From Elusimicrobiota bacterium (GTDB taxonomy: Bacteria > Elusimicrobiota > Elusimicrobia > UBA1565 > UBA9628): a stretch of DNA of 57,039 nucleotides. The first letter of the stretch is position 1; each line of letters begins with the position of its first letter. Below, in pieces: positions 52,214-57,039 of this stretch. The stretch spans positions 1 to 57,039 of the forward strand of contig JAHFCE010000021.1 of assembly GCA_023249675.1 (NCBI GenBank), written 5' to 3'. Below the pieces are notes generated by a model. That model saw only the letters and a program-made list of their open reading frames with translations, was not told the DNA's origin and searched no databases. Position numbers and translations under genes: made by a program.

Positions 52214-53826
52214 GGTTCGAGCCGCGCCGCGGGGATGCGGGAATTCTTTCGCGATAAAATCGCTTTCTGTCGATCCGCGGGCGCGAGCGCGCCGAGAAGG
52301 ATCATCCCGTCGGGGCCGACGAGCGCGGCCGCGGGATGGCGGCCTGCGCGCGCAGGATCTTCGGCGAGCGCGACCACGGCCCACCCCCAGCGCGCGGGGT
52401 TGCCGCGCATGTAGGAGCGCGGTACTGAGACAACGACCTCGTCCTCCGGCGAAGTCCCGCCGGGTTGCAAGGACCACTGCGCCTTGAACGTCGCGGTTTC
52501 CTCGGGCTCCCCGCCGCCGCGGGCGCGGTAGAGGCGAGCCTCGTCGCCGACGATGGACAGTGCTAGCTCCCACGCGTCGCGCGCGGAGACGACGGCGCCG
52601 CGGCCCTCCAGCAGCGGCATGCGGCCCGCGCCGAGGACGTGGTTGAAGTCGGTGTAGATCTCGTAGAGGGGGCGGGGGGCGACGCTGGGGGCGCTGCTGA
52701 CGCGCAGGATCAAGCGCACGGACACCTCGTTCCATTCTGCGCGCAGGCTCCGGATGCGCCACGGATCGGAGCCCAGCGGAGCGCGGAACTCGAGCCAGAA
52801 CGGGCCGGACAGCGCTTGCACGCCCGTCGGCCTGTCCTCGGCGGACGGCGCGGCGGCGGTATCGGAGGAGATGCCGTACAGCGCATCGGGCGCGGGAAGT
52901 CCTAGCTTCTTATAGACAGCAAGCAGGGCGGCGCGCAGTTCGGGCGGCGGGCCTTGCGATTGGCCGGTCCGGTAGAAGCGAGCGGCCTGCGCGCGGCGCA
53001 GAAGCTCAACGGCCGCATCGAGAGTTTTGAGGTCGGCCGAGCCTGAGTTCTGATAGCGGTCCACCTCCCTTGCCGCTGCGCCGTAGGCGTCCCAGGCGGC
53101 CGCAGCGCCCGCGTTGGCGGGGGGAATCCGGGCGGCCTGCGGATCCCATGCGGGCCAAGCCGCGAGCGAGGAGAGCTCATTGGGAGTCTTGGATTTCGTG
53201 CGGACCAGCTCGCTGAGCGTCATCCAGCCCGAAACGGGGCGCGGCAGGTCTGCCGCGGCGGCGAGGAAGACGGAGGCCGTCGAGGCGCTTTCGTCATAGA
53301 GCTGCGCGGCGCTCGATGGCACGAGGATTGCCCGGCCCGCGGCCCAGGGCGCGTCGGGAGCGGCGTAAGGGCCGGTCAGGATCCAGCCGGCGCCGCTCGA
53401 CCCGAGGGCGGCGGCCACGGCCGCGTCCACGGCGCCAGCACCCGGGAGGATGCCCGCCGGCGTGAGGCCCAGGCGCTTCTGCAGGAGCTCGCGCGTCTCG
53501 ACCGCGAGTTCAAGCGCGTCCTGTGGCCGCGGGGCGGCGGGATGGCCGGCGGCCAAGGTCAGCACGGGATCGCCGTCGATGCGCGCGGCGAGCTCGATGC
53601 GGCCTCGTTCGATCCACGGCGTCAGCGCCGCTTTGACCAGAGGCGTTGCCATGGTCGGCGTCACTCCGATCGTGAGCTTGATGCCGTCCTGGGCGCGCAT
53701 GAGCGCGTCCACTTCGCTCCAACGGGAGAAGTTTTCGGGCGGAAGCCAAACGAGCGCGCCGGGGAGCGTCTGGGCCGGGGCGGCCACGGCCCAGAGCAGC
53801 GGCGCCAACAGGAGGAAGAGCTTCAT
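52210..53826 (-). CDS. Exported GH57-like protein with glucodextranase/DOMON-like C-terminus
   Basis: Protein of 538 residues with a signal peptide (MKLFLLLAPLLWAVAAPAQT). The N-terminal half (LVWLPPENFSRWSEVDALMRAQDGIKLTIGVTPTMATPLVKAALTPWIERGRIELAARIDGDPVL..., then GLTPAGILPGAGAVDAAVAAALGSSGAGWILTG) follows the fold pattern of GH57/polysaccharide-deacetylase-like barrels. It lacks the usual HxH and E/D motifs that I can identify, so it may be non-catalytic. The C-terminal part (about 330-520: PFWLEFRAPLGSDPW, SVRLILRVSSAP, LYEIYTDFNHVLGAGRMPLLEG, VVVSVPRSYM) resembles the sugar-binding-type domain that follows GH57 or glucodextranase modules. Its start overlaps the CBM48 gene stop in ATGA, so the two form an operon. 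Confidence 0.55.
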   Translation of the reverse strand: MKLFLLLAPLLWAVAAPAQTLPGALVWLPPENFSRWSEVDALMRAQDGIKLTIGVTPTMATPLVKAALTPWIERGRIELAARIDGDPVLTLAAGHPAAPRPQDALELAVETRELLQKRLGLTPAGILPGAGAVDAAVAAALGSSGAGWILTGPYAAPDAPWAAGRAILVPSSAAQLYDESASTASVFLAAAADLPRPVSGWMTLSELVRTKSKTPNELSSLAAWPAWDPQAARIPPANAGAAAAWDAYGAAAREVDRYQNSGSADLKTLDAAVELLRRAQAARFYRTGQSQGPPPELRAALLAVYKKLGLPAPDALYGISSDTAAAPSAEDRPTGVQALSGPFWLEFRAPLGSDPWRIRSLRAEWNEVSVRLILRVSSAPSVAPRPLYEIYTDFNHVLGAGRMPLLEGRGAVVSARDAWELALSIVGDEARLYRARGGGEPEETATFKAQWSLQPGGTSPEDEVVVSVPRSYMRGNPARWGWAVVALAEDPARAGRHPAAALVGPDGMILLGALAPADRQKAILSRKNSRIPAARLEP

Positions 53827-54275
53827 TTGACGTTCTTCACCGAGACGCGGCGCCCCTGCGGGCCGTCGGCGGTGTCCGCGCGCGGATCGACGGTGGGCTC
53901 GCCGTCAACGAGGAAAAGGTATTTGTTTCGGCCTTCGAGCACCGGGATCGAGACGGTCCACACGCCGTCGACGCCGCGGGTCATCTTCAGGAGGCCCGGC
54001 TTCCAGGCGTTGAAATCGCCGACGAGTTCGACCGACTTGGCCTTCGGGGCTTTATGCCGGAATTCGACCGAGGTGAGCGTTGGTTCGTAGCGCCCGCCGC
54101 CATGCGGTGTGAAGCTCGTGCTGGTGGCTTTGAGCGGTGCGGGCGTCCAGCCCGACAGGAAGCGGCGGTAGTCGTTGAGCGCGGACACCCACGTGATGGA
54201 GGGCACGCAGACCAGGGCCAGCACCGCTAGGACCATCGCCCAGAAGGCTGCCTTGCCTTGCTTATGCTCGGTCAT
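53823..54275 (-). CDS. Membrane-anchored CBM48 (glycogen-binding-like) protein
   Basis: Protein of 150 residues. One N-terminal membrane helix (about 10-30, AAFWAMVLAVLALVCVPSITWV) is followed by a short stalk. An AMPK/CBM48 early-set domain (about 66-150) reads VEFRHKAPKAKSVELVGDFNAWKPGLLKMTRGVDGVWTVSIPVLEGRNKYLFLVDGEPTVDP. GDFNAW, the Trp of GVWT, and YLFLVDGE are hallmarks of this alpha-glucan binding family. It is the first gene of a two-gene operon with the GH57-like protein. It may hold that partner or a glucan at the membrane. Confidence 0.8.
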   Translation of the reverse strand: MTEHKQGKAAFWAMVLAVLALVCVPSITWVSALNDYRRFLSGWTPAPLKATSTSFTPHGGGRYEPTLTSVEFRHKAPKAKSVELVGDFNAWKPGLLKMTRGVDGVWTVSIPVLEGRNKYLFLVDGEPTVDPRADTADGPQGRRVSVKNVK

Positions 54276-54328: not shown

Positions 54329-55648
54329 ATGGACACGAAAATCTCCTCGCAACCGTCTCCCGTGCTGAAACCCATCGTGAAACCTGCCGCGCAAGCCGAA
54401 GCCTACGAGGACAATCCCTGGCGTCAGGCCATGGAGCAGCTCGACCGCGCCGGCATGGCGATGAAGCTCGAGCCTTTCGCGCTCGAGCGCCTGCGCCATT
54501 GCAAGCGCATCCTGACGGTGTCCGTACCGGTCAAGATGGACGATGGGACGGTGAAGGTGTTCGAAGGCTACCGCATCCAGCACAACATGGACCGCGGTCC
54601 GGCCAAGGGCGGCATCCGCTACCATCCGTCGGTCTCTCTCAACGAGGTGAAGGCGCTTGCTTTCTGGATGACGATGAAGTGCGCGGTCGTGAACCTTCCC
54701 TATGGAGGCGCTAAGGGCGGCATCATCTGCGATCCAAAGAAGATGTCCCGCGGCGAGATCGAGCGCATGACTCGCCGCTACACCGCGGAAATCTCCATCA
54801 TCATCGGCCCCGACAAGGACATCCCCGCCCCCGACGTGAACACGAACGCGGAAGTCATGGCGTGGATCATGGACACTTATTCCATGACGATCGGCTATTC
54901 GTGCCCGGGCGTCGTGACGGGAAAGCCCATTGAGATCGGCGGCTCCCTCGGCCGCAACGAGGCGACCGGCCGCGGCGTGTTCTACGTGACGCGCGAGCTG
55001 GCGAGCCGCGAGGGCTTCGACCTGCGCAAGTCCGCGGTCGTCGTCCAGGGCTTTGGCAATGTCGGCTCGAATGCCGCGAACATCTTCGCCGAGCACGGCA
55101 CGAAAGTCGTCGGCGTCTCTGACGTTGGCGGCGGCCTGTACGATCCGAAGGGGCTTGACCTCCACGACATATTGGAGTACCGAAAGACGCACGACTCGAT
55201 TGCCGATTACCCGAAAGCCGAACACGTCGCCGTCGATAAGTTCCTGGAGCTGCCCTGCGACATCCTGATCCCGGCCGCGATGGAAGGCACGCTCACCAAG
55301 GCCAACGCGGACAAGATCAAGGCCAAGTACATCATCGAGGGCGCCAACGGCCCGACCACGAACGACGCCGACGCGATCTTCCACAAGAAAGGCATCATCG
55401 TCGTTCCCGACATCCTGGCCAACGCCGGTGGCGTGACCGTCTCCTACTTCGAGTGGGTGCAGGACATGCAGGCTTACTTCTGGAGCGAGAAGGACATCAA
55501 TGCCCGCCTCCAGGAGATCATCGTCGGCGCCTTCACCGAGGTCTACGACGTGTCGAAGAAGGAAAAGATCGACATGCGCATGGCCGCCTTCATGGTCGGC
55601 CTGCGCCGCCTGGGCAAGGCCGCCACGATTCGGGGCATGTATCCCTGA
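54329..55648 (+). CDS. gdhA: Glutamate dehydrogenase (Glu/Leu/Phe/Val family)
   Basis: Protein of 439 residues, normal for a hexameric catabolic-type GDH. It carries GYRIQHNMDRGPAKGGIRYHP, then MTMKCAVVNLPYGGAKGGI with the catalytic Lys, and DIPAPDVNTNAEVMAWIMD. The Rossmann domain has VVVQGFGNVGSNAA and GVSDVGGG, followed by PAAMEGTLT, IIEGANGPTT, VPDILANAGGVTVSYFEWVQ. It interconverts glutamate and 2-oxoglutarate with ammonia; the cofactor (NAD or NADP) cannot be told by eye. An N-terminal extension of about 25 residues (SSQPSPVLKPIVKPAAQAEA) precedes the conserved part. A hairpin overlaps the stop codon before the next gene. Confidence 0.93.
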   Translation: MDTKISSQPSPVLKPIVKPAAQAEAYEDNPWRQAMEQLDRAGMAMKLEPFALERLRHCKRILTVSVPVKMDDGTVKVFEGYRIQHNMDRGPAKGGIRYHPSVSLNEVKALAFWMTMKCAVVNLPYGGAKGGIICDPKKMSRGEIERMTRRYTAEISIIIGPDKDIPAPDVNTNAEVMAWIMDTYSMTIGYSCPGVVTGKPIEIGGSLGRNEATGRGVFYVTRELASREGFDLRKSAVVVQGFGNVGSNAANIFAEHGTKVVGVSDVGGGLYDPKGLDLHDILEYRKTHDSIADYPKAEHVAVDKFLELPCDILIPAAMEGTLTKANADKIKAKYIIEGANGPTTNDADAIFHKKGIIVVPDILANAGGVTVSYFEWVQDMQAYFWSEKDINARLQEIIVGAFTEVYDVSKKEKIDMRMAAFMVGLRRLGKAATIRGMYP

Positions 55649-55669: not shown

Positions 55670-57039
55670 ATGAGAATCCTCGTCGCCCCGAACGCTTTTA
55701 AGGGGACTTTGTCGTGCGTGGACGCCGCACGGGCCCTGGCCCGCGGCGTCCGCGCCGTTGATAAGACCGCGCGCGTGCGCGCGGTCCCGATTGCCGACGG
55801 CGGCGACGGACTCATCGACGCCCTGCGCGCCGCTCTGGGCGGGGGAACGATCATCTCGGCCTCCGTGCGCGGCCCGCGCGGCGAGCGCCGCCGCGCGGCC
55901 TATCTGTGGATCGCGGGTCGGAAGACCGCGGTGATCGAGATGGCGCGCGCCTCCGGCCTCGCCTTAGTCCCTGCGGCGCGACGGCGCGTGATGGCCGCGA
56001 CGACACGCGGCACCGGAGACCTCATGCGCGACGCGGTGCGTCGGGGCGCGCGCACGCTCATCGTCGGCATGGGCGGTAGCGCGTCGAACGACGGCGGCGC
56101 GGGCATGGCGCGGGCTCTCGGCGCGCGCCTGCTCGACCAGGAGGGCCGCGAGCTCCCCGACGGGGCCCAGGCGCTGGCGTTCCTGGCCCGAGTGGACGCG
56201 CGCGCGGTCCGGGCCCAACTTGCGGGGGTGAAGGTGATCGCCCTCTCGGATGTGACGAACCCGCTTCTCGGCCCCCAGGGTTCGGCGCGCGTGTTCGGTC
56301 CGCAGAAGGGCGCCTCGCCTGCGCAGGTGCGGCGCTTGGAGCGGGCGCTGGCCGTCTGGGCGCGTGCGCTCAACCGCGATCTGGGCGTTTCCGTCGCCGC
56401 CGTGCCCGGCGCGGGCGCTGCCGGCGGCCTCGGTGCGGGGCTTCTTGCCTTCGCGGGCGCTCAGATCGTGCCCGGGGCTGATTGGGTCTTGGAGAAGACG
56501 GGGGCGCTGAAGGCTTTGAAGAGCGCGGATCTGGTCATTACGGCCGAAGGCCGCCTGGACAAGACGAGCCTGTACGGAAAGGCCCCGGTGGCTCTGGCCC
56601 GGGCCGCAAAAAAGGCGGGCGTGCCCTGCGTCGCGATCGGTGGCCAAGTGGAGTCCGGCGCGCTGCGCGCGCTGCACGCCGCCGGAATTGTGAAAATCGT
56701 CTCATTCTCCGATGCCGGAGCGGCCTCCAGGAACGACGCGATGAAGCACGCGGCCAAGTGGGCGGCCAAGGCGGCCGCCGTCGCGGTGTCGGGCCTCGCC
56801 GTTTTCATGTTGTTGAGCGTGCCCGTTCGTGCGAATGAGCTCGCGGCCCCCGAGTCGTTCGACGCCCAGTATTATCAGCGCCATCTCGGGGATAATCTCG
56901 AAAAAAACATCGTCGCACTCGAGGACGTCCTCAAGAGCGAAGCCGTCGGCGCAGACGCCTGGAAGGCCGGCTATCTGTGGCGGCTGTGCCGTGCGACAGT
57001 TCGTCGCGGCGAGACCCTCAAAAAAAAGTCCGCCAAGCT
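55670..57039 (+). CDS. Glycerate kinase running into a signal-peptide-like segment (3' end outside window)
   Basis: The frame is open from ATG 55670 to the window end (456 codons). Residues 1 to about 360 match glycerate kinases of the GarK/GlxK type: MRILVAPNAFKGTLS, PIADGGDGLIDAL, KTAVIEMARASGLALV, GTGDLMRDAV, VGMGGSASNDGGAGMARALG, GPQKGAS, PGAGAAGGLGAGLLAF, ITAEGRLDKTSLYGKAPVALA. They phosphorylate glycerate. Instead of ending near residue 375, the chain continues MKHAAKWAAKAAAVAVSGLAVFMLLSVPVRANELAAP..., a textbook signal peptide starting at Met358 (56741), followed by a helical region (ENIVALEDVLKSEA-like). Either this is a true fusion or a second gene starts inside the kinase's last helix in the same frame. 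Confidence 0.8.
   Translation, partial: MRILVAPNAFKGTLSCVDAARALARGVRAVDKTARVRAVPIADGGDGLIDALRAALGGGTIISASVRGPRGERRRAAYLWIAGRKTAVIEMARASGLALVPAARRRVMAATTRGTGDLMRDAVRRGARTLIVGMGGSASNDGGAGMARALGARLLDQEGRELPDGAQALAFLARVDARAVRAQLAGVKVIALSDVTNPLLGPQGSARVFGPQKGASPAQVRRLERALAVWARALNRDLGVSVAAVPGAGAAGGLGAGLLAFAGAQIVPGADWVLEKTGALKALKSADLVITAEGRLDKTSLYGKAPVALARAAKKAGVPCVAIGGQVESGALRALHAAGIVKIVSFSDAGAASRNDAMKHAAKWAAKAAAVAVSGLAVFMLLSVPVRANELAAPESFDAQYYQRHLGDNLEKNIVALEDVLKSEAVGADAWKAGYLWRLCRATVRRGETLKKKSAK

Follow-up and report, generated by a model that had tools for sequence, protein, structure and literature searches.

In-frame fusion of a class II glycerate kinase, through a signal-peptide-like segment, to a predicted exported TPR protein in one order of Elusimicrobiota

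Signal peptides are normally found at the N-termini of proteins. In rhizobia, FbcH is a cytochrome b/c1 polyprotein, encoded by one ORF with an internal signal sequence and cut by signal peptidase; both of its parts are membrane subunits and belong to the same complex. A related arrangement is found in the PASTA Ser/Thr kinases and the anti-sigma factors. These are signalling proteins with an N-terminal cytoplasmic part, one membrane segment and a C-terminal domain outside, in which the segment is a permanent anchor; they are not defined by a site for signal peptidase.

The fusion described here, between a class II glycerate kinase and a TPR protein, is a new form of this known kind, which takes in polyproteins and bitopic proteins that carry a signal segment in their interior. 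As in FbcH, a single frame encodes two proteins and an internal signal segment (21 loci), and a small-x-small site is present in each (21/21), although in the fusion cleavage is a prediction. Unlike FbcH, it begins with a soluble enzyme of metabolism that has no known link to the second part. With the PASTA kinases and anti-sigma factors it shares the order of cytoplasmic part, single membrane segment and outer domain, as predicted from its sequence. No description of a kinase–TPR fusion was found in the titles and abstracts searched, a set that covers few subscription papers.

A glycerate kinase frame that continues into a TPR protein

The window, the whole stretch of 57,039 nucleotides that was analysed, is the entire contig C6 of its source genome, the Elusimicrobiota assembly G000, and its end is the contig end. 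An ORF on the forward strand (55670–57037) runs to this end without a stop codon. The features of the locus are:

54329–55648, + strand: Glu/Leu-type dehydrogenase (GDH), the upstream neighbour (ORF; PF00208 and PF02812)
55670–56779, + strand: class II glycerate kinase, residues 1–370 of the fusion, the predicted cytoplasmic half (PF02595, TIGR00045, 3cwc, 1to6)
56741–56770, + strand: last kinase helix, which is also the basic n-region MKHAAKWAAK and includes the ATG of the proposed nested gene (alignment of unfused kinases; AlphaFold2 model of the G001 fusion)
56771–56815, + strand: h-region AAAVAVSGLAVFMLL, 15 residues, mean Kyte-Doolittle 2.43 (hydrophobicity)
56816–56833, + strand: c-region SVPVRA, which contains V-x-A; signal peptidase I is predicted to cut after A388 (56833/56834) (sequence)
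56834–57039, + strand: beginning of the TatT/RMDN-like TPR protein, predicted to be exported; the contig stops within it, and the rest is on contig C16 (42-base overlap, Pfam)

An initial annotation of the window had claimed that the kinase frame runs into a signal peptide without a stop, and this is borne out by the open frame and by the end of the kinase match (PF02595) at the last residue of MKHAAKWAAKAAA, the Met of which is residue 358 (56741–56743). The 15-residue hydrophobic stretch AAAVAVSGLAVFMLL starts inside the last three residues of MKHAAKWAAKAAA and is followed by SVPVRA|NE, with no stop codon between kinase and signal sequence and no linker after the last kinase helix. The same annotation had pointed to the sequence beyond 57039 as a check. 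This is supplied by contig C16: the last 42 bases of the window are identical to its first 42 (reverse complement), the sole fit among overlap lengths of 20 to 119 bases. In the joined ORF the frame is kept for 161 codons beyond the window and closes with TAG after 617 codons, giving the order glycerate kinase, signal-peptide-like segment, TatT/RMDN-like TPR protein. The joined protein is 76% identical, over 617 residues, to a homologue in genome G001 that is encoded on one contig.

The kinase half is matched at almost full length by Gly_kinase PF02595 (residues 3–370, profile positions 1–365 of 372, E 1.6e-122), at 409.5 bits against a family cut-off of 23.3, and by TIGR00045 (residues 2–368, E 3.4e-116). 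Its solved relatives are 3cwc, which is the nearest and also the best match of its model, and 1to6. The glycine-rich and DGG motifs are invariant across the 17 fused rows of the alignment; phosphorylation of glycerate by this half, in the cytoplasm, is a prediction. The full-length kinase domain is common to the fusion and the class II glycerate kinases, whereas the 11 aligned unfused kinases stop at or shortly past the last helix, which in the fusion continues into the signal-like segment and the predicted exported domain. In G010, a single-contig chromosome (L018 / L044), the kinase frame is broken and the junction and TPR are in frame, which could reflect a sequencing error or a decaying kinase.

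The joined TPR part, of 230 residues, matches two Pfam models above their cut-offs, RMD1-3 (RMDN/PTPIP51, PF21033; E 1.6e-9) and TAtT (TatT, PF16811; E 1.3e-8). Across the 31 members of the TPR family, TAtT is matched in 26 and RMD1-3 in 23. An AlphaFold2 model of the G001 TPR, built from 31 sequences (pLDDT 94.6, pTM 0.90), gave as its top matches 7cc7 (the PTPIP51 TPR domain), 7t1s (BstC, a bacterial sterol transporter) and 8g52 (a TPAT protein). Passages of a report on TatT describe a hydrophobic pore and suggest uptake of hydrophobic molecules (PMC5812351), and passages of another liken BstC to the T-component Tp0956 (PMC10942540). The fused TPR resembles these carriers of hydrophobic ligands and the PTPIP51 TPR domain, and from this likeness of fold a role in periplasmic ligand handling, as carrier or scaffold, might tentatively be proposed.

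The likeness to TatT has its limits: the match, at 34.9 bits against a cut-off of 26.5, is weak and partial (profile positions 83–238 of 263 only), the predicted cut lacks a lipobox, and TRAP genes are not adjacent. TPAT proteins are encoded together with DctP, DctQ and DctM, while the fused gene follows a dehydrogenase on C6. The genome has a separate TPAT-type TRAP set, DctM, DctQ, DctP and TatT, on contig C21 (L137 3643–7315), where its sole DctM match lies and the adjoining TatT is matched with E 5.1e-79. A TRAP partnership of the fused TPR is ruled out by this set, which has its own T-component. The N-terminus of the C21 TatT resembles a lipoprotein signal.

Recurrence within one order

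The initial annotation had also asked for homologues of each half. Each was searched for in 97 genomes, with the window ORF, including the start of the TPR, as first query, and the complete G001 protein was compared with 340 genomes of the phylum. The order-level tally covers 56 genomes (G000–G055) in three families (f1, f2, f3), several of them incomplete MAGs. In 21 of the 56 the kinase frame passes through the junction into the TPR, and all three families are represented. The gene is complete on one contig in 16 of these 21 loci and complete after the contig join in G000; in G005, G015 and G024 the kinase is cut by contig ends and the frame is kept across the junction, and the remaining locus is that of G010, with its broken kinase frame. 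The 17 complete fusions show 47–76% identity to the first aligned row.

Five genomes have both genes unfused, adjacent in G050 and on different contigs in G026, G032, G036 and G051. Among the remaining genomes, with the incompleteness of some MAGs bearing on both counts, 21 have a TPR without a detected kinase and two have a kinase without a TPR (G019, and G012 with a partial kinase match). Neither half was found in seven, including G054, where the TPR match is weak (E 5.7e-4). Wherever the halves lie side by side, in 22 genomes of the order, they are in one frame in 21 and in different frames in one (G050). Outside the order, none of the matches listed in the 340-genome search spans both halves.

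When named genomes were scanned with the TPR as query, 32 loci came up, of which 23 are from Elusimicrobia or Elusimicrobiota, three are labelled only "bacterium", five are from Stahlbacteria or WOR-3, and one is from Acidobacteriota. The kinase motif is in frame with the TPR in nine (L067, L069, L070, L071, L072, L079, L080, L090 and L092), and L068, L073, L074 and L083 are fused loci with a cut or broken kinase; in L093–L098 the TPR frame contains no kinase motif. In the fused loci, the last 70 codons before the TPR are also free of stops in the +1 frame (5/17) and the +2 frame (14/17). Since 70 codons without a stop are nothing unusual in the GC-rich DNA of these loci, the weight rests on the homology of both halves and on their recurrence, by which the fusion is confirmed as real and recurrent in one order. 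In G029, a second copy of the TPR, 38% identical to the query, lies directly downstream of the fused gene (C38:51717–52349).

Polyprotein, anchor or nested gene at the junction

The reading that we favour, with a probability of roughly 0.6, is that one gene encodes a two-compartment polyprotein, with the kinase inside, the TPR exported, and signal peptidase I probably separating them. Translation would begin at 55670 with the glycerate kinase, and this would fold in the cytoplasm, its last helix leading without a linker into a Sec-signal-like segment of basic n-region, h-region and V-x-A c-region. The hydrophobic segment would then enter the membrane N-in/C-out and carry the TPR to the periplasmic side. 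Signal peptidase I would most likely cut after VPVRA (A388) to release a soluble periplasmic TPR, and leave the kinase with a short, membrane-embedded hydrophobic tail at its C-terminus. The initial annotation had offered, as one of two options, an enzyme fused to an exported domain; the 21 loci in three families uphold this, while the placing of the two ends on opposite sides of the membrane, like insertion, cleavage and enzyme activity, is deduced from the sequence.

Across the 21 fused loci, the composition of the segment is that of a signal peptide. The 15 residues that precede the hydrophobic segment hold 2–5 Lys/Arg and 0–2 Asp/Glu, the mean Kyte-Doolittle value of the segment is 1.79–2.70, and in 21/21 an A/V-x-A lies between 4 residues ahead of the segment's end and 8 past it. 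The same motif follows 27 of 41 N-terminal and 40 of 112 internal hydrophobic segments in a control set, which comprised the ORFs of the window and of 200 kb of contig C25 at a hydrophobicity cut-off of 1.9. In the fused loci the best hydrophobic window near the TPR was picked, and that of G025, at 1.79, lies below this cut-off. The contrast favours cleavage and is suggestive only, a contrast rather than a probability, on account of this choice of window and of the kinship and alanine-richness of the 21 loci.

At the predicted cut, VPVRA|NEL in the window, A/V-x-A is found in place of a lipobox. Inspection by eye of the 17 complete fusions located Cys only inside the hydrophobic region (G003, G020, G021, G022 and G030), and none at A/V-x-A. 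When the G001 fusion was modelled with AlphaFold2 from 10 sequences (pLDDT 77.9, pTM 0.52), a result from which the relative placing of the halves is not readable, a single helix (354–375) took in both the final helix of the kinase and the hydrophobic segment. The pLDDT falls below 50 at 372–382, around the predicted cut. This dip is not unique, because stretches within the kinase (136–148, parts of 195–213, and 244–255) are also below 50.

The strongest alternative, rather unlikely though far from negligible, is an uncleaved bitopic protein, in which a plain anchor tethers the kinase permanently and the TPR forms a periplasmic arm, possibly a sensor or carrier. Its anatomy would be the same, the hydrophobicity of the segment is of membrane quality, the fusion is present in all three families, and the A/V-x-A that follows 40 of the 112 ordinary internal segments shows that such a motif also accompanies segments of that class. 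It accounts less well for the presence of A/V-x-A in every fused locus despite a neighbouring c-region that varies in length and sequence. Some unfused TPR relatives (e.g. G002, G009, G011 and G017) start, judged by eye, with apparent free signal peptides, and the occurrence of the TPR without a detected kinase in 21/56 genomes indicates that its role does not require a tether; both argue against an anchor, and the apparent free signal peptides also fit the cleaved polyprotein.

The other option in the initial annotation was an overlapping gene starting at 56741, which would give a separate secreted TPR from codons shared by the kinase C-terminus and the signal peptide. We consider this improbable. 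The G000 ATG does yield a textbook signal peptide, with AGGA 8 bases upstream as a 4-base SD-like match; ATG occupies this column in 11 of the 17 complete fusions, and SD-like matches stand at the same spacing in G018 (GGAGG) and G010 (GAGG). In the other six, however, the codon is ATC (two), CTG (two), TTT (one) or TAT (one), and in G047 and G005 no ATG, GTG or TTG, the only start codons sought, is placed to give a signal peptide with an n-region; the G005 contig begins about 60 codons upstream. As the 11 unfused kinases also have ATG here in four cases (and TTG in one), the Met belongs to the kinase family.

The AGGA says little, because SD matches of this strength are near background: in the window and 200 kb of C25, with ORFs called by length alone, a match of at least 4 bases precedes 174 of the 1069 ATGs that lie internally and in frame, and of the 170 ORF starts only 48 have one. 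In the G000 genome, SD strength was discarded as uninformative for telling the two apart. With neither start codon nor ribosome-binding site conserved, a nested gene at 56741 is not supported as the conserved mechanism; an extra product from 56741 in this one species is possible. The two options are in any case not exclusive, since without a stop a ribosome starting at 55670 makes the fusion regardless of 56741.

The weakest alternative, that a frameshift, lost stop or misassembly joined two genes, derives from the gene straddling a contig break in the G000 MAG, bridged by the 42-base overlap, and is scarcely credible: the junction (56741–56833) lies within the contig, the joined protein aligns with that of G001 throughout, and the frameshift near 56740 that the initial annotation had named as its refutation is excluded by the in-frame junction in 20 other genomes, 16 with the whole ORF on one contig and four more.

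Persistence, neighbourhood and origin of the fusion

The kinase and the TPR do not need each other, as is clear from the 21 TPR-only, two kinase-only and five unfused cases among the 56 genomes, some of them incomplete MAGs; this counts against the favoured reading. The fusion may persist without benefit, by a ratchet: after loss of its own start, the TPR would be silenced by any stop that arose at the junction, and selection on the TPR alone would keep the frame open. Given the TPR-only and kinase-only genomes, the ratchet is no poorer a fit than a functional partnership. A bolder version of the polyprotein reading, possible but on the doubtful side, is that in much of the order the protein is split across the membrane by signal peptidase into a soluble metabolic kinase and a periplasmic TPR that binds ligands, with the kinase helix doubling as n-region, and that the kinase stays tail-anchored beside the export site and couples glycerate metabolism to an envelope process.

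Where the last helix of a cytoplasmic enzyme has been drawn into the signal peptide of the protein that follows, the stop between a cytosolic gene and an exported neighbour could be lost without harm. The fusion also offers a clean test case for whether signal peptidase can process a polyprotein that contains a soluble enzyme. For annotation, one name given to both halves would place one of them in the wrong location.

The dehydrogenase upstream of the kinase (54329–55648; ELFV_dehydrog PF00208, E 8e-83; PF02812, E 1.9e-60) has a homologue in the same position in all 17 complete fused loci. It also adjoins four of the six unfused kinases of the order (G019, G026, G032 and G036), is about 1.7 kb off in G050, and was not seen within the flank examined in G051. 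Among 12 kinase-less TPR loci of Elusimicrobiota type, a dehydrogenase lies directly before the TPR in four (L075–L078), at 73–81 bases from match to match. L088 has a weak match on the opposite strand, and none was seen in the other seven, some of which have little upstream sequence.

In G050, the TGA of the kinase overlaps a GTG that can start the TPR (GTGA), an arrangement that is one small frame change from fusion. In a tree built from 28 kinase rows, the 23 from the order fall together with a support of 80/83. On this tree the fused or separate label needs five changes, 9 of the 25 inner branches being open, and both one gain of the fusion with several losses and several gains are possible.

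Two further loci lie near the fused gene in G000. On C16, 3' of the TPR stop, is a type II toxin-antitoxin pair (L002 409–663 and 660–965) with matches to ParE_toxin PF05016 (E 1.4e-11) and PhdYeFM_antitox PF02604 (E 2.9e-11). Upstream of the dehydrogenase, on the reverse strand of the window (53823–54275), is a gene of 150 amino acids with a glycogen-binding module (CBM_48 PF02922, E 1.3e-9; AMPK1_CBM PF16561, E 2.3e-8), homologues of which occur in 13 of the 62 loci searched.
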